A stretch of DNA of 47,206 bases from Candidatus Berkelbacteria bacterium (GTDB taxonomy: Bacteria; Patescibacteriota; UBA1384; DTJR01), in contig JAPLVK010000011.1 in NCBI GenBank assembly GCA_026397175.1, positions 1-47,206 on the forward strand, read 5' to 3'. Shown here in pieces: positions 9,638 through 15,528 of this stretch; the stretch's first letter is position 1; each line of letters opens with the position of its first letter. A program made the translations under genes and the position numbers. The notes beneath the pieces were generated by a model, which saw only the letters and a program-made list of their open reading frames with translations, was not told the origin of the DNA and did no database searches.

Positions 9638-9672
9638 TTGCCCCACTTCTCTGCTTCGAAGTATAATAGTGG
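9638..9672 (+). promoter_or_regulatory. Promoter overlapped by palindromic operator, cassette 1
   Basis: TTGCCC (9638-9643), an 18-base spacer and TATAAT (9662-9667) form a promoter for the TrpR-like gene. A 30-bp palindrome (9643-9672), centred on TTCGAA with CCACT...AGTGG ends, covers the spacer and the -10. Eleven of 15 positions are symmetric. The layout fits self-repression by the encoded HTH protein. Confidence 0.6.
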
Positions 9673-9689
9673 TAAAATGAATATATAAT

Positions 9690-9971
9690 ATGGTAAAAAG
9701 AGGAATTGATTTTGAATCGAAAAAGTTACTGATCGAGTCACTAGAGAAATTAGAAAGTGATGAGTTTGTTGATTTTCTTGAGTCACTTTTATCATCAACG
9801 GAAATAAAAAATATCTCTCGCCGCACTATGGCAGCAAAAGTATTGTTTGAAAAACATACCTACGAAGATGTTGAGGAACTCATGGGAATGTCGCCTGGAA
9901 CTATCAACAAAATTCATTTCAAAACCAAAGGCAGTCCAGCTTTCCGTAAACTATTCGACACAAAACGCTAA
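9690..9971 (+). CDS. TrpR/YerC-family HTH regulator, cassette 1
   Basis: The 93-residue all-helical protein is of the Trp-repressor-like YerC/YecD family. The helix-turn-helix is at about residues 55-80 (YEDVEELMGMSPGTINKIHF), followed by KTKGSPAFRKLF. No tryptophan-binding role is implied, since YerC-type proteins are not known Trp sensors. The gene is bounded by related palindromes 17 bases before its ATG and 4 bases after its stop. A paralogue with the same arrangement is at 15203. ATG choice: an in-frame ATG without a clear Shine-Dalgarno. Confidence 0.85.
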   Translation: MVKRGIDFESKKLLIESLEKLESDEFVDFLESLLSSTEIKNISRRTMAAKVLFEKHTYEDVEELMGMSPGTINKIHFKTKGSPAFRKLFDTKR

Positions 9972-9975
9972 TTTT

Positions 9976-10005
9976 CCACTTCCATACTTCGAAGTATAGA
10001 AGTGG
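9976..10005. repeat. 30-bp palindrome downstream of cassette 1
   Basis: CCACTTCCATACTTC and its reverse complement meet at TTCGAA; 14 of 15 positions are symmetric. It starts 4 bases after the stop codon of the TrpR-like gene. The same arm, with TCTAGA at its centre, flanks the paralogous gene at 15165-15528. It may be an operator, a bidirectional terminator, or the end of a small element. Confidence 0.85.
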
Positions 10006-10150
10006 CAAGTTAAGTGGTGTAGGTAGGGTGTGCAGACAAAAGCCAAATAGTATGATACAATGAAGTTACATTTTAGTATAAAACAAGTAGCGTAGTCGAA
10101 CTATTTTTTTATACAATCTAAATGTAAACATATTAAATAAGGTATATATT

Positions 10151-10381
10151 ATGCAAAAAGGAAAAATCAAACGGTTGACGGATCGCGGATTTGGATTCAT
10201 CGAGATCGAAGGTCAAGAGAAAGATTTATTCTTTCATTCCAACGCGCTCGAAGGTGTAACCTTCGAAGAGTTAAAAGAAGGCGATGAAGTCCAGTTCGAA
10301 GTAGCTTCTGGTCCAAAAGGCGACAATGCAACAAATGTATCCAGAGTAGATGCAGGTGCGCCTGTAGCTGCAGCAGAATAA
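10151..10381 (+). CDS. Cold-shock domain protein
   Basis: The 76-residue CspA-family protein is a single OB fold with RNP1 GFGFIEIEG and RNP2-like DLFFHSNAL. It binds single-stranded RNA or DNA and melts mRNA structure. The short acidic/Ala tail (GAPVAAAE) is common in CPR copies. About 145 bases of untranslated leader precede it, usual for csp genes whose mRNA leader is regulatory. AAGG lies about 9 bases before the ATG. A strong terminator follows. Confidence 0.95.
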   Translation: MQKGKIKRLTDRGFGFIEIEGQEKDLFFHSNALEGVTFEELKEGDEVQFEVASGPKGDNATNVSRVDAGAPVAAAE

Positions 10382-10398
10382 GTAAAATTATTCTAAAC

Positions 10399-10441
10399 AA
10401 AAAACGCCTCGTCCGTATGGGAGAGGCGTTTTTTGTTTTTT
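10399..10441. terminator. Bidirectional terminator between csp and DUF5679 gene
   Basis: The stem AAAACGCCTC/GAGGCGTTTT has a 12-nt loop and T-tracts on both strands (TTTTTTGTTTTTTT on plus, TTTTTTGTTT on minus). It ends csp and the convergent DUF5679 gene. Confidence 0.85.
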
Positions 10442-10448
10442 TATAAAC

Positions 10449-10622
10449 TTACTCTGCTTTTTTGGTACCGAGGATTTTGAACATTTTTGTTCCACACTCG
10501 GTGCAGATACCTTTCATGGCTTTTCGGCCATTTTTCATCTCTACTTCTTCCGTATCCTTCATCTCTCTTTTTTCCTTACACTTCATGCAATGTCCGGTCT
10601 CGACTACTTTTGCTTCGTCCAC
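10449..10622 (-). CDS. DUF5679-like small zinc-knuckle protein
   Basis: This 57-residue gene is absent from the ORF track because it is short and starts with GTG. AAAGGAG lies 5 bases before the GTG. It has CMKCKEKREMKD near the N-terminus and ICTECGTKMFKILG near the C-terminus, with two CxxC pairs (12/15 and 40/43) around a basic NGRKAMKG stretch. This is the pattern of the DUF5679 family common in CPR. Function unknown. The plus-strand ORFs over this interval are shadows. Confidence 0.85.
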   Translation of the reverse strand: MDEAKVVETGHCMKCKEKREMKDTEEVEMKNGRKAMKGICTECGTKMFKILGTKKAE

Positions 10623-10734
10623 AATACTCCTTTGTTATTTGTTGCTACTTTTTAAGTATACACGCTCAAAAAAATCTATCAACTAAAAATTAAACCGATT
10701 GGACATCCAGATAAGTTTACTCGGACACTATAGC

Positions 10735-10815
10735 GAAATTAGGAATTATGAGCTAAGATTTAGACAATAATCCCATACAAAGAAATTATTAAAATCTTGG
10801 AATGGAAAATATTAT
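10735..10815 (+). pseudogene. Decayed copy of the ybaK upstream region and 5' end
   Basis: ATTATGAGCTAAGATT here matches ATTATAAGCTAAGATT just upstream of ybaK (14291). The following bases align with the start of ybaK, including an exact GAAATTATTAAA. Read in that frame they give I-I-P-Y-K-E-I-I-K-I-L-E against M-D-P-Y-Q-E-I-I-K-L-L-D, with ATA in place of ATG. Similarity fades after about 80 bases. Divergence of roughly 30 percent means it is old. It lies on the far side of the pRiA4b-unknown-PIF1 genes from the intact ybaK. Confidence 0.65.
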
Positions 10816-10934
10816 TGCACATTGGAAATTTCGGGGGTATCCCCAAAAAAATAAGGTAGATTTAGCAATAATAAACGATACTAGTAAGAGTTATCGAGGG
10901 GTTGGAAAATAATAAATATTCATGACGGAGATTT
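10816..10934. other. Intergenic leader of the pRiA4b gene
   Basis: AT-rich sequence with one small hairpin, GGGG-TAT-CCCC (about 10834-10844), followed on plus by AAAAAAA. ACGGAG lies 5 bases before the pRiA4b ATG as ribosome binding site. I see no further gene here. Confidence 0.5.
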
Positions 10935-11573
10935 ATGAAAAACGAAAAGAAAGTTATTCGGGGAATGCAGTTTAAAATTACTCTAAATGACAGTAAACCC
11001 AAAGTATGGCGTAGAATTGTGGTGCCAAGTGTTTATTCGTTTTTTGATTTACATTGTGCGATCAAAAACGCAATGGGTTGGTCTGATTGTCATTTACATG
11101 GTTTTTATATTGCCCCAAAAGGCACATCGGGTTTGATCATGATTAAATTTCCCGATCCAGATAATGATTATGGATATTTTGATAATGATGATTTAGACGA
11201 GAGAAAAGAAAAAATTGCTGACTATTTTGGCAAGCGAATCAAACAATGTCAATACACTTACGATTTTGGCGATAGCTGGGATCATACAATATTGTTTGAA
11301 AGAGAGTATGTAGCAGCCATCAGGGCGAAATATCCAATCTGTTTGGCTGGTGAAAATGCCTGCCCCATAGAAGATAGCGGTGGAACCGATGGCTATGAAG
11401 GGTTGACTAAAATTTTGAAAAATCCAAAGCACAAAGAGTATGATGAGATGTGTGAATGGCTGGGAATTGAAAGTGGAGAAGAAATTGATCCCACAGAGCT
11501 TGTTGTGTCCGATGTCTATTTTGAAAACCCGCGACAGTGTCAGAAAAATTGGGAAAAAGGTTGCAGAATTTAA
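10935..11573 (+). CDS. Plasmid pRiA4b ORF-3-like (IS1096 TnpR-type) protein
   Basis: The 212-residue protein opens with QFKITLNDSKPKVWRRIVVP and has FFDLHCAIKNAMGWSDCHLH, TYDFGDSWDHTILFE and a CLAGENACPIEDSGGTDGYE segment. These are hallmarks of the pRiA4b ORF-3 family (PF07929), also seen as a passenger gene of IS1096. The biochemical role is unknown and the family is common on mobile DNA. The next gene starts 50 bases later and the PIF1 helicase follows, so the three likely form one transcript of accessory origin. Confidence 0.88.
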   Translation: MKNEKKVIRGMQFKITLNDSKPKVWRRIVVPSVYSFFDLHCAIKNAMGWSDCHLHGFYIAPKGTSGLIMIKFPDPDNDYGYFDNDDLDERKEKIADYFGKRIKQCQYTYDFGDSWDHTILFEREYVAAIRAKYPICLAGENACPIEDSGGTDGYEGLTKILKNPKHKEYDEMCEWLGIESGEEIDPTELVVSDVYFENPRQCQKNWEKGCRI

Positions 11574-11623
11574 ATGGTCGTCAGATTGTCATAAATAAAA
11601 ACATAAATAAAAAAAAGGATATT

Positions 11624-12526
11624 ATGCAAAAAGGTACTGTTAAAAAATTAATAGAATATTTTTTTAAGAACCATTCGCATGAGATGATTTTCGCAATGAG
11701 AGATTTTTTTGGCGAGAACAACATTGGGCCTGGCGGAAATATAAACATTCAGAATAACCAAGAAGAAGGATTATTTATGGAATGGATTGTCTTTGATTAT
11801 CGTTTTCAAAATGGAAAAGGATTATTAGATAATTTTATTTCTGAAAATCCACTCGATATGTCAAAGAGCGAATTACGGATTTACGAGGACTTGCAAATAA
11901 ATAAGTATGGTTTTTTCGAGATCATTAGCGTCAAAAAAGATGAATATCTTGAGCTCGAGAGTTTGCAAAGCGGAAAAATATACAAAGTGCAGGAAAAGAT
12001 GGGAACCTACAACGCCGAACCCAAAACTACCCTTGTCTGCCGTGTTGGCAAAGTTGCTGATCACTGGGAGTTGATTGGCAGCGATCCAGTCGGTTTTCCC
12101 ATTCACTATACAGAGCGAGCGAAAAAATTAATGCGAGAAGATAAAGGTAAATATTCCCCAAAAGATATCCGTAAACTTTTAATTGACAAAAAAAACAATC
12201 CAAGTAAATTCGAGAAAAACTTACGAATGAAGGATGAGGATTTTATTAAAAAGCAAAACCAGATTAGGACTTCGCTCGAAAAACAGCTGATAAAATCCAA
12301 AAGCACTGCAAGCGTAGATGACATTCTGAAAATTGTCTATAGAGAGAAAAGGCATGACGATATATCTAAAATCGTCTCCCTACTCGGCAATAATAAAAAT
12401 GTGATAATGCAGAGTTTGCTCGATTTAGCATCTAGTGCTTGGAATTATTTTCCACACAAATCGCTTGGCGGTAAATCCCCAGCTGAAAAAGCCAAAGAAA
12501 TTTATGGAGATCAGAAGAAGATCTAA
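11624..12526 (+). CDS. Unrecognised protein between pRiA4b and PIF1 genes
   Basis: I set the start at 11624 because AAAGGA lies 5 bases before that ATG; the ORF track begins 29 codons earlier, overlapping pRiA4b. The product is 300 residues, soluble, with no membrane segment and no cysteine pair. The N-terminal half is mixed alpha/beta, with WIVFDYRFQNGKGLLDNFI and LVCRVGKVADHWELIGSDP. The C-terminal half is Lys-rich and helical, ending in SAWNYFPHKSLGGKSPAEKA. That last motif recalls the C-terminal tail of some transposases and of SEC-C/pRiA4b-linked proteins, but I cannot assign a family. Confidence 0.8.
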   Translation: MQKGTVKKLIEYFFKNHSHEMIFAMRDFFGENNIGPGGNINIQNNQEEGLFMEWIVFDYRFQNGKGLLDNFISENPLDMSKSELRIYEDLQINKYGFFEIISVKKDEYLELESLQSGKIYKVQEKMGTYNAEPKTTLVCRVGKVADHWELIGSDPVGFPIHYTERAKKLMREDKGKYSPKDIRKLLIDKKNNPSKFEKNLRMKDEDFIKKQNQIRTSLEKQLIKSKSTASVDDILKIVYREKRHDDISKIVSLLGNNKNVIMQSLLDLASSAWNYFPHKSLGGKSPAEKAKEIYGDQKKI

Positions 12527-12546
12527 AAAAATATACGGAAGGTATA

Positions 12547-14247
12547 ATGAATCAGACCCAAGCTCTCAAAATTTTAAAGACCGGAGCCAATGTATTCCTT
12601 ACGGGTGAGCCGGGAAGTGGCAAAACATATGCAATCAATCAGTATGTGGCATATTTACATTCCCATGGGATCGAGCCAGCGATTACGGCTTCGACCGGAA
12701 TCGCCGCCACGCATATCGGCGGGATGACAATACATTCTTGGAGTGGTATTGGAATAAAAAGCAAGTTGAGCAAGACCGATCTTAATAAGATTGCTACAAA
12801 CGATTATGTTAAAAAAAGAGTTGGGAAAGCCAAAATTTTGATAATTGATGAGATTTCGATGTTGCCACCCCAGACCCTGCAAATGGTTGATGCAATTTGC
12901 AAAGAAGTGAAGAAAAGTCCAGAGCCCTTTGGGGGCATACAAGTGGTTTTAGTCGGAGATTTTTTCCAGCTTCCCCCAGTTGTCAGAAAGTCATTTAATG
13001 AAGAGTCGCAAGAAAATCTATTTGAGGAAACGCCGGTTCGCTTCGCTTACGATGCTCCTGTATTCAAACAAGCAGAATTTGTTACGAGCTATATCACCGA
13101 GCAACATCGCCAAGACGATAAAGAGCTGGTTTCGGTCTTATCGAAAATCCGTAGTAACAGCTTTGACGAGCTATCACTTGGGCACATTAAAAAAAGAAAA
13201 ATTGATTCTCTAAAAGTTCCGGGCTATGCGCCCAAACTATATTCGCATAATGTTGATGTTGATATCGTAAATGATCGAATGCTAGCCAAGATTCCGGGGA
13301 ATGAACGATTATTTAAAATGGCAGCAAAGGGACACGAGGGGTTAATAAATGTAATGAAAAAGGGCTGTTTGTCGCCTGAAAATTTATATTTGAAAACCGG
13401 TGCCTCGGTCATGTTTACAAAAAATAATACTAAGGAGGGCTTTGTAAATGGAACGCTGGGGATAGTGGAGGGATTTAGTAAAGAGACAAAGCTGCCTATT
13501 GTTAAAATTCGAAATGGCCGCAAAATTAAGGTCTCGCCTGCGGACTGGACTGTTGAGGAAGATGGGAAAGTAAGGGGTAAACTGACACAGATTCCACTTC
13601 GCTTGGCTTGGGCCATCACCGTGCATAAAAGCCAAGGGATTTCTCTGGACGAAGCAGTTATTGACTTATCGAAGGTCTTCGAATTTGGTCAAGGTTATGT
13701 GGCGATTTCGCGGGTTAGGCGACTTTCCGGAATTTATATTCTTGGTTTCAATGACATGGCTTTTCGGGTTGATCCGGAAGTACTGCAAAAAGATAAGGAG
13801 TTTTTTGCTCAATCAACCGACGCCCAGACGGTGTATTCGCGTTTTTCGGAGAATGAATTCGAAAAAATGCGAAAGGACTTTATCGTTTTTTGCGATGGAG
13901 AACTGGATACATCGAGCGTTGTTTCGAAAGATCACGAGAAGAAACCGGCGACATACGACGAGACATTAAAATTATGGAAAGAGGGAAAGGATATTGCTCA
14001 AATCGCTAAAATTCGCAATTTAAGCGAGGGAACAATTTTAGGCCATGTCGCGAACTTGATTGAAAAAGGAAAAATAGATAGAGCTGATCTTGTGCGAGTT
14101 GTGCCGCCAAATCTTTCGCGAGATCTTTCAAAAATCCATGCCGCCTTCAAAAATCTCGGCACCGATAAATTATCACCGGTGTTTAATCATTTCCAAGGCA
14201 GATATTCATACGACGAACTAAAACTTGCTAGGATGATGATGGAATAA
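12547..14247 (+). CDS. PIF1-like ATP-dependent DNA helicase
   Basis: This 566-residue SF1B helicase has motif I GEPGSGKT (residues 20-27), motif Ia ASTGIAATHIGGMTIHSWSG, Walker B ILIIDEISML and motif III VLVGDFFQLPPV. The C-terminal UvrD-like motifs are ITVHKSQGISLD and GQGYVAISRV. After residue 460 there is an extra winged-helix/HTH region (LWKEGKDIAQIAKIRNLSEGTILGHVANLI) as in bacterial PIF1 and RecQ-associated helicase C-terminal domains. PIF1 enzymes unwind 5'-3', resolving G-quadruplexes and R-loops. GGAAGG lies before the ATG. It starts 20 bases after the preceding gene. Confidence 0.93.
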   Translation: MNQTQALKILKTGANVFLTGEPGSGKTYAINQYVAYLHSHGIEPAITASTGIAATHIGGMTIHSWSGIGIKSKLSKTDLNKIATNDYVKKRVGKAKILIIDEISMLPPQTLQMVDAICKEVKKSPEPFGGIQVVLVGDFFQLPPVVRKSFNEESQENLFEETPVRFAYDAPVFKQAEFVTSYITEQHRQDDKELVSVLSKIRSNSFDELSLGHIKKRKIDSLKVPGYAPKLYSHNVDVDIVNDRMLAKIPGNERLFKMAAKGHEGLINVMKKGCLSPENLYLKTGASVMFTKNNTKEGFVNGTLGIVEGFSKETKLPIVKIRNGRKIKVSPADWTVEEDGKVRGKLTQIPLRLAWAITVHKSQGISLDEAVIDLSKVFEFGQGYVAISRVRRLSGIYILGFNDMAFRVDPEVLQKDKEFFAQSTDAQTVYSRFSENEFEKMRKDFIVFCDGELDTSSVVSKDHEKKPATYDETLKLWKEGKDIAQIAKIRNLSEGTILGHVANLIEKGKIDRADLVRVVPPNLSRDLSKIHAAFKNLGTDKLSPVFNHFQGRYSYDELKLARMMME

Positions 14248-14312
14248 ATGACACCTGCGAGGTGTACATGCGTGTGTAGTAGAATCAGGCATTATAAGCT
14301 AAGATTAAAAAA

Positions 14313-14777
14313 ATGGATCCATATCAGGAAATTATTAAACTTTTAGACGAAAACCAAATTGATTATCAAAAAACCGAGCATGAGGCGGTTTACACTTGTG
14401 CACAAGCAGCGAAGGTTCGGGGCGTATCCGAGGACTCTGGTGCAAAGGCACTGCTTCTAAAGGCGGATGGAGAATTTATTTTGGCACTTTTGCAAGGCAA
14501 TAGGCGGCTTGACTCTAAAAAATTGAAAAAAACACTGCAAATAAAAAGTTTTAGATTTGCTTATCCAAATGAGGTCGAGGATACAATGCATTGTCAAATC
14601 GGTGCATGTTATCCATTTGGAAATATCGTGGATTTGCCGACTTATGCCGACATCTCACTTTCAAATATGGAAAGTATTAATTTTAACGCGGGCCATCACG
14701 AAAAATCAATACAGATGAAATGGAATGATTTTGAGAAAATCGCAAAACCAAAAATTATTAACATCGCACAAGAATAA
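14313..14777 (+). CDS. YbaK/EbsC-type aminoacyl-tRNA deacylase
   Basis: The 154-residue protein is a stand-alone YbaK/ProX editing domain with TEHEAVYTCAQAAKVRGV, AKALLLKADGEFILALLQG and the conserved QIGACYPFG (GxxPPFG-like) loop. The family hydrolyses mischarged aminoacyl-tRNA (for example Cys- or Ala-tRNA-Pro); the actual substrate here is unknown. A broken copy of its promoter region and first codons lies at 10735, beyond the PIF1 group. The next gene begins one base after its stop codon. Confidence 0.88.
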   Translation: MDPYQEIIKLLDENQIDYQKTEHEAVYTCAQAAKVRGVSEDSGAKALLLKADGEFILALLQGNRRLDSKKLKKTLQIKSFRFAYPNEVEDTMHCQIGACYPFGNIVDLPTYADISLSNMESINFNAGHHEKSIQMKWNDFEKIAKPKIINIAQE

Positions 14778-14778
14778 T

Positions 14779-15129
14779 ATGAAAAATAAAACCATTGCAG
14801 TTTTTCATATGATTGTTCTTTTAGCGGCTGTATTGTCGCCGGTTTGGATTGATTGGCAAATTATCGTTGTCGGCTACATAATCTACATTTTGCAGATAAT
14901 TATTTTTAAGGGCTGCGTTTTAACCTTTGCTCAATTCGGATCAGAAAATGGTCGGCCACACAGAAGATTCACGGCATATTATATTATCAAGACCTTCGGG
15001 ATAAAATCGATCACAGAAGAGCAACTCGGAATAAAACTTGATCGTTATCTTGCCCCAGCCGTTCCGATTGTGGCTATAATAATTCAAACCGTTTTTAGCT
15101 ATCAGCCATTTGTAAACATTTTTAAATGA
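14779..15129 (+). CDS. Small polytopic membrane protein, unknown
   Basis: Starting at the ATG right after the ybaK stop gives 116 residues; the longer ORF-track start overlaps ybaK and is less likely. There are three hydrophobic segments (about residues 5-23, 26-45 and 92-108) and a conserved-looking loop GCVLTFAQFGSENGRPHRRF. The pattern recalls small DUF2784-type proteins, but I am not sure. It is coupled to ybaK and precedes the second TrpR-like cassette. Confidence 0.65.
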   Translation: MKNKTIAVFHMIVLLAAVLSPVWIDWQIIVVGYIIYILQIIIFKGCVLTFAQFGSENGRPHRRFTAYYIIKTFGIKSITEEQLGIKLDRYLAPAVPIVAIIIQTVFSYQPFVNIFK

Positions 15130-15164
15130 ATGCGTATTTGTTATAAAATTTAATATTTATTAGG

Positions 15165-15200
15165 ATTCTACTTCCATACTCTAGAGTATGGAAGTAGAAT
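15165..15200. repeat. 36-bp perfect palindrome upstream of cassette 2
   Basis: The arm ATTCTACTTCCATACTCT is followed by its exact reverse complement (18 of 18). It ends 2 bases before the ATG of the TrpR-like gene, so the mRNA leader could fold into an 18-bp hairpin over the ribosome-binding site. It differs from the downstream palindrome at two positions per arm, and both changes are mirrored in the opposite arm. Confidence 0.95.
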
Positions 15201-15202
15201 AA

Positions 15203-15493
15203 ATGATAATGCCAGAGAGAAATATTGATAGAAAAGCCAAGGAATTATTTATTAAAACTCTTGCAGAGCTTAAAAAAGAAGATGATATTTTGATGTTTCT
15301 TGAAAACCTGTATTCCTCTTCGGAAGTTAAGGATCATTCACGACGACTGCTGGCTGCAAAAATGTTGATCGAAGGAAGTACTTACGAAGATATCGCTTTG
15401 GTTATGGGCATGGGGACAGGAACCATTAATAAAATACACTTTAAGACCAAGGGTAGTCCTCTTTTAAACAAATTATTTAAAGAAAGGCAATAA
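15203..15493 (+). CDS. TrpR/YerC-family HTH regulator, cassette 2
   Basis: The 96-residue protein (94 if the second ATG at 15209 is used) is paralogous to the gene at 9690. The HTH lies in YEDIALVMGMGTGTINKIHF, and GTINKIHFKTKGSP is identical in both, while the N-terminal helices and the DNA have diverged widely. The stop codon shares its last base with a perfect 36-bp palindrome, and another palindrome ends 2 bases before the start. No Shine-Dalgarno is visible, so translation start may be controlled by the hairpin. Confidence 0.85.
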   Translation: MIMPERNIDRKAKELFIKTLAELKKEDDILMFLENLYSSSEVKDHSRRLLAAKMLIEGSTYEDIALVMGMGTGTINKIHFKTKGSPLLNKLFKERQ

Positions 15494-15528
15494 TTCTGCT
15501 TCTATACTCTAGAGTATAGAAGCAGAAT
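15493..15528. repeat. 36-bp perfect palindrome downstream of cassette 2
   Basis: The arm ATTCTGCTTCTATACTCT and its exact reverse complement (18 of 18) begin at the last base of the TrpR-like stop codon. Compared with the upstream copy, A/G and C/T changes in one arm are matched by compensating changes in the other. The Nudix gene starts 10 bases later. Confidence 0.95.

Follow-up and report, generated by a model that had tools for sequence, protein, structure and literature searches.

TrpR-family genes of Candidate Phyla Radiation bacteria enclosed at both ends by matched, gene-specific palindromes: candidate self-operators

In this work, we analyzed two TrpR/YerC-family genes, each enclosed by palindromes, within a 47-kb window (the whole stretch of DNA under study) from a Candidate Phyla Radiation bacterium with a tiny genome (1.0 Mb). 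The reading that we favor, with a probability of about 0.6, is that each unit would be a TrpR-family repressor gene placed between two copies of its own private operator, and would be autorepressed and self-insulated.

Results

Two palindrome-enclosed genes in the window

The original prediction had described two palindrome-bounded TrpR/YerC cassettes of 363 and 364 bp, and both their coordinates and their lengths were confirmed. The features are as follows.

9643-10005: unit 1, outer length 363 bp
9643-9672: unit 1 upstream site, CCACTTCTCTGCTTCGAAGTATAATAGTGG, imperfect palindrome with a TTCGAA centre, 11 of 15 dyad pairs
9690-9971, + strand: unit 1 gene, TrpR/YerC-family, 93 aa, PF01371 match
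9976-10005: unit 1 downstream site, CCACTTCCATACTTCGAAGTATAGAAGTGG, 14 of 15 dyad pairs
15165-15528: unit 2, outer length 364 bp
15165-15200: unit 2 upstream site, perfect 36-bp palindrome, 18 of 18 pairs, TCTAGA centre
15203-15493, + strand: unit 2 gene, TrpR/YerC-family, 96 aa, alternative start at 15209, PF01371 match
15493-15528: unit 2 downstream site, perfect 36-bp palindrome, 18 of 18 pairs

Long palindromes had been claimed at all four ends. This held for both sites of unit 2 and for the downstream site of unit 1, but not for the upstream site of unit 1, where the right arm, TATAATAGTGG, contains the -10-like TATAAT and makes the palindrome clearly imperfect. The upstream and downstream 36-mers of unit 2 are identical at 32 of 36 positions; the former ends 2 bp ahead of the first ATG, and the first base of the latter is the last base of the stop codon. 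No other perfect palindrome of 18 bp or more without a loop occurs in the window, where the best palindrome score was 18, versus a maximum of 11 in 20 Markov-simulated windows. Scanning the window with a ten-base half-site signature returned the four unit sites and one non-palindromic chance match, and a search of the 1.0-Mb genome for the shared motif, allowing up to three mismatches, returned only the unit sites plus one chance-level match with three mismatches (the reversed pattern, used as a control, gave two matches per strand). Equal palindromes scattered at unrelated genes, the observation that had been named as speaking against a self-contained unit, are absent from the host genome, in which the motif is confined to the two units and does not occur at histidine genes, where HisR operators lie.

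Judged by consensus matching only, unit 1 has a promoter-like match of 10/12, with the -35 element TTGCCC at 9638 and TATAAT inside the upstream site, and the upstream site of unit 2 begins 16 bp past a -10-like match. Since a -10-like element thus lies inside (unit 1) or just before (unit 2) the upstream site, autorepression through this site appears likely. The DNA between the units (10935-14247) has the appearance of an accessory region, with a gene like ORF-3 of plasmid pRiA4b, an ORF of 329 aa that matches nothing in Pfam, and a PIF1 helicase that includes an HTH_40 domain.

Proteins encoded by the units

Both proteins exceeded the cut-off of the Pfam profile PF01371 (30.2 bits for unit 1 and 33.4 bits for unit 2; cut-off 27) and remained under that of the NCBIfam profile yecD_yerC (TIGR02531; 34.0 and 37.2 bits; cut-off 42.2), which places them in the TrpR family but below the level set for YerC/YecD. 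They are 56% identical to each other, and the unit 1 protein is 84% identical to a protein of another Berkelbacteria genome (L007). The AlphaFold model of the unit 2 protein (pLDDT 91) matched 3g1c (TrpR-like), 3frw and E. coli TrpR in Foldseek with probability 1.00. Profile and fold searches detected no domain other than TrpR in the unit proteins, hence no transposase, recombinase or nuclease, and no third TrpR-family gene was found in the host genome at E≤1.

Recurrence of two-ended sites among relatives

We assembled 100 distinct TrpR-family loci from class and phylum searches and a genome-contig scan; they were sampled by similarity to the window proteins and include a few near-copies (L097/L105). 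For each gene, approximately 250 bp upstream were aligned to approximately 250 bp downstream, and the threshold was the score reached by 1% of mismatched pairings. Of the 100 genes, 44 had matched sites at both ends, versus 1 expected from this null, and the arrangement is present at each of the seven genes in the clade of the window's genes; the original proposal of a self-contained unit carrying its presumed site at both ends is thereby well supported. The same test was passed by 5 of 119 control ORFs; each of these belongs to genus g146, in whose genomes dispersed repeats abound. The genomes G216 and G164 were also seen to contain dozens of dispersed repeats each, about 30-55 bp long and of the TCATTCTGG.../AGAATGAC type. 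The test is conservative, as it missed the Berkelbacteria MAG locus L007, where unit 1-type sites at both ends, in an unrelated gene context, were spotted by eye.

On the tree, 7 changes of the two-ended label were needed, of which 3 or more are forced, compared with 32 when labels were shuffled, so that the two-ended layout is a trait of clades. All 20 members of a clade of short HisR-like proteins are one-ended. A sub-clade within family f66 (L083, L058, L052 and L066) is one-ended as well, from which it follows that the second site is dispensable for some family members. A majority of homologues lacking flanking palindromes had been named as a further argument against the proposal, and, across the family, about half have no second site, but these fall mostly in separate HisR-like clades. 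In one close-clade unit (L024, G031:C50), the gene is broken by an in-frame stop and both matched sites are retained.

Private site sequences and their co-variation with the protein

Sites match within a unit, while their sequences vary from unit to unit, even inside one genome. In genus g146, a genome has up to five paralogues that show 53-68% identity to the first, and the site sequence, matched at both ends, is a different one for each of them. For units that share a locus but come from different species (L110/L076, L057/L064, L150/L158 and L018/L025), the site score was 0.6-1.0 within a unit versus 0.2-0.35 between species; read from these scores, both sites have changed together. Across the 44 units, site similarity increased with protein similarity (Mantel test, 0/1000).

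The downstream site has an even dyad in 44 of 44 units. When aligned on the dyad, the sites share in register the half-site T-N4-TACT-NN, with T at -11 (81%) and TACT at -6 to -3 (T at -6, 90%; A at -5, 77%). Even dyad and conserved half-site together are the geometry of a predicted dimer operator. Asymmetric bases were kept in direct orientation in a ratio of 29:5 and, given that a symmetric dimer needs no direct orientation, we infer that copying between the two ends acts alongside selection. In L019, the downstream palindrome has the same arms as the upstream one but the opposite loop orientation (TTCCC versus GGGAA); in L023, from a sister species, both loops have the same reading direction.

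TrpR-type palindromes were also observed in genus g146 as intergenic pairs or clusters, 70-100 bp apart, without a regulator gene:

L180, 1258-1289 and 1325-1356: solo palindromes
L132, 768-795 and about 895-922: solo palindromes
L129, about 2486-2640: solo palindromes

Such solo palindromes occur near what reads as rluB and as a hydrogenase operon, in an arrangement that is either REPIN-like or regulon-like; the left flank of the region near rluB is not conserved between the genomes compared. A solo site of the L105 type (L131:209-236) directly precedes a gene that reads as a tryptophanyl-tRNA synthetase. The presence of family-type solo sites near other genes suggests that the regulators are not purely self-directed in this genus.

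Position of the downstream site

The distance of the downstream site from the stop of its own gene is tight (median +7 bp, IQR -1.5 to 15.5) when compared with the distance to the next gene (IQR 16-114), which indicates that its position is set by the stop codon of the unit. It is present ahead of convergent neighbours in 8 of 43 cases. Neighbours, which are unrelated housekeeping genes, are co-directional with the unit equally often downstream (36/46) and upstream (36/46), and 15 of 35 co-directional downstream neighbours start within 30 bp of the site. Stop-anchoring, the convergent cases and equal co-directionality argue together for a function within the unit itself, be it loop closure or an insulating roadblock.

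A role of the downstream site as promoter carrier was considered and rejected, as no -10 asymmetry was detected (p 0.78). Helical phasing between the two sites was also rejected (resultant 0.05-0.07), so that the argument for looping is the arrangement itself and neither loop nor roadblock is preferred.

Presence and absence of whole units in operons

In the genomes G273 and G401 (family f66), a unit lies between metG and tatD, whereas the two genes directly adjoin each other in nine further genomes. In G273, a few bases separate the metG stop from the upstream site, and 9 bp separate the downstream site from tatD. Likewise, a unit is present between corA and cysS in G121, G105 and G400 and absent in G403, G294, G223 and G401. 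Clean occupied and empty sites were therefore obtained at both operons, with neither target-site duplication nor scar in the empty ones. Considering these comparisons, the whole unit has most likely been gained or lost as one block within housekeeping operons, and gain, loss or both would fit. Together with the concerted change of both sites between orthologues, this gives good support to the idea of a self-contained unit. The comparison of syntenic genomes that had been suggested thus yielded occupied and empty sites at these two operons, but no clean empty site for the two units of the window: the neighbouring NUDIX gene occurs in four genomes of the class, including that of the window, with a unit adjoining it only in the latter and with differing left neighbours. 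For the Berkelbacteria unit L007, the flanks lie on separate contigs in its genus mate G049.

Several units hold conserved positions between species, and units are patchy within genera. One unit (L047) sits between two dTDP-sugar genes and, at one g146 locus in two species, the units L042 and L054 lie on opposite sides of a DoxX gene. In G402, from the same genus as G401, the metG-tatD gap contains a DUF559 nuclease-like gene (L152) instead of a unit, an occupancy suggestive of a hot spot for insertions. A phage origin was rejected, as viral_contigs yielded no confirmed relatives and a separate search gave five distant phage matches; no plasmid matched the family.

Discussion

Taken together, these results point towards repressor genes that are fenced by their own operators. 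Dimers of the gene product would bind the upstream site, over their own promoter or start, and repress their own gene; they would also bind the downstream site just past their own stop codon. With both sites bound, the DNA between them could form a loop of approximately 330-620 bp, or polymerase could be blocked at both edges, and the expected outcome would be tight self-control and insulation of the gene from the surrounding operon. The two sites might be kept alike by inter-site copying, in which direct orientation is favored, and by selection for binding. Three observations speak against this reading: the spacing of the sites has no helical phase, g146 has family-type sites on their own near other genes, and the f66 sub-clade manages with a single site. 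As to why a downstream operator is kept at all, we infer looping, a roadblock or mobility as candidate reasons.

The last of these leads to the suggestion, already made in the original prediction, of a minimal mobile or selfish element, in which the matched palindromes would be its ends, marked by the TrpR-like protein, and host or foreign recombination would move the unit. Whole units come and go cleanly at metG-tatD and corA-cysS, they occur at unrelated loci with sites close to the adjoining genes and are patchy within genera, and the opposite placements around the DoxX gene, the direct orientation of the asymmetric bases and the two sites retained by the decayed copy L024 are all features that such an element could show. 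However, no catalytic domain is encoded, the empty operons are scarless, private sites exclude one common transposase, and matches in phages amount to five distant ones and those in plasmids to zero; several units moreover keep their position between species, and part of the pattern might be due to loss only. We therefore consider mobility unlikely. The corresponding picture of a selfish cassette, with one DNA-binding gene of about 90-200 codons and two private sites, which would spread between operons without a nuclease or recombinase of its own and rewrite both sites together whenever its specificity drifts, is doubtful to the same degree.

The downstream site could instead be the operator of the next gene, which would turn the protein into a local repressor of itself and of its downstream neighbour. 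The mostly co-directional downstream neighbours, the frequent starts within 30 bp of the site and the g146 solo sites upstream of start codons would agree with this, but upstream neighbours are co-directional just as often, the site persists ahead of convergent genes at a position set by the unit's own stop, the neighbours are unrelated housekeeping genes and downstream sites show no -10 asymmetry, all of which makes this explanation quite improbable. It is also conceivable that the palindromes act as RNA hairpins, that is, paired terminators, mRNA ends or processing signals that bracket the gene by chance, and the downstream palindrome of unit 2 is indeed terminator-like, though on the minus strand. 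Nevertheless, coding-strand departures from pairing are balanced (26 G.U versus 20 A.C) and favor neither strand, on which count this reading was rejected; the even-dyad register, the conserved half-site bases and the covariation with protein divergence point to DNA, and no Rfam family was matched except a tRNA, so that we regard RNA hairpins as a very remote prospect. Self-operators at both ends are thus the interpretation that we retain.

The units are a simple case, found across the phylum, of a regulator gene with its own putative operator on either side, and they comprise dozens of protein/site pairs in which both partners diverged in step. They make it possible to test the role of a downstream self-operator, how DNA-binding specificity and sites change together, and how a gene without a recombinase comes and goes in the housekeeping operons of reduced genomes. 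The assertion that the arrangement had no prior description stands within the searchable literature (subscription journals and preprints being outside its scope), where nothing relevant was found on TrpR-family genes or palindrome-flanked regulators in the phylum. The protein family is known; what seems undescribed is a clade-wide set of repressor genes fenced at both ends by private operators that change together.

RAYT/REP systems and REPINs resemble the units in placing a single small gene between two palindromes, and in genus g146 the likeness extends to similar palindromes, single or in pairs, at other places of some genomes. However, RAYTs are Y1 tyrosine (HUH) transposases whereas the units encode a TrpR domain only, which sets them outside this group, and units of the same genome have different sites. 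Integron gene cassettes and pdif modules are likewise small genes bounded by palindromic or dif-like sites and present or absent as blocks. They need IntI or XerCD and common sites specific to the recombinase, whereas the sites of the units follow the enclosed protein.

The closest relatives are the HisR/YerC and TrpR repressors, with which the units share fold, family and, by prediction, dimer-type palindromic operators. TrpR and HisR operators are 20-bp palindromes, and autoregulation is frequent in both groups, being established for TrpR and deduced for some of the HisR repressors (PMC9413887). These repressors target metabolic operons from an upstream operator only, whereas the motif search of the window's genome returned no other targets and both unit proteins score below the yecD_yerC cut-off; the units differ from them in having a matched putative operator at both ends, with a site sequence private to each gene.
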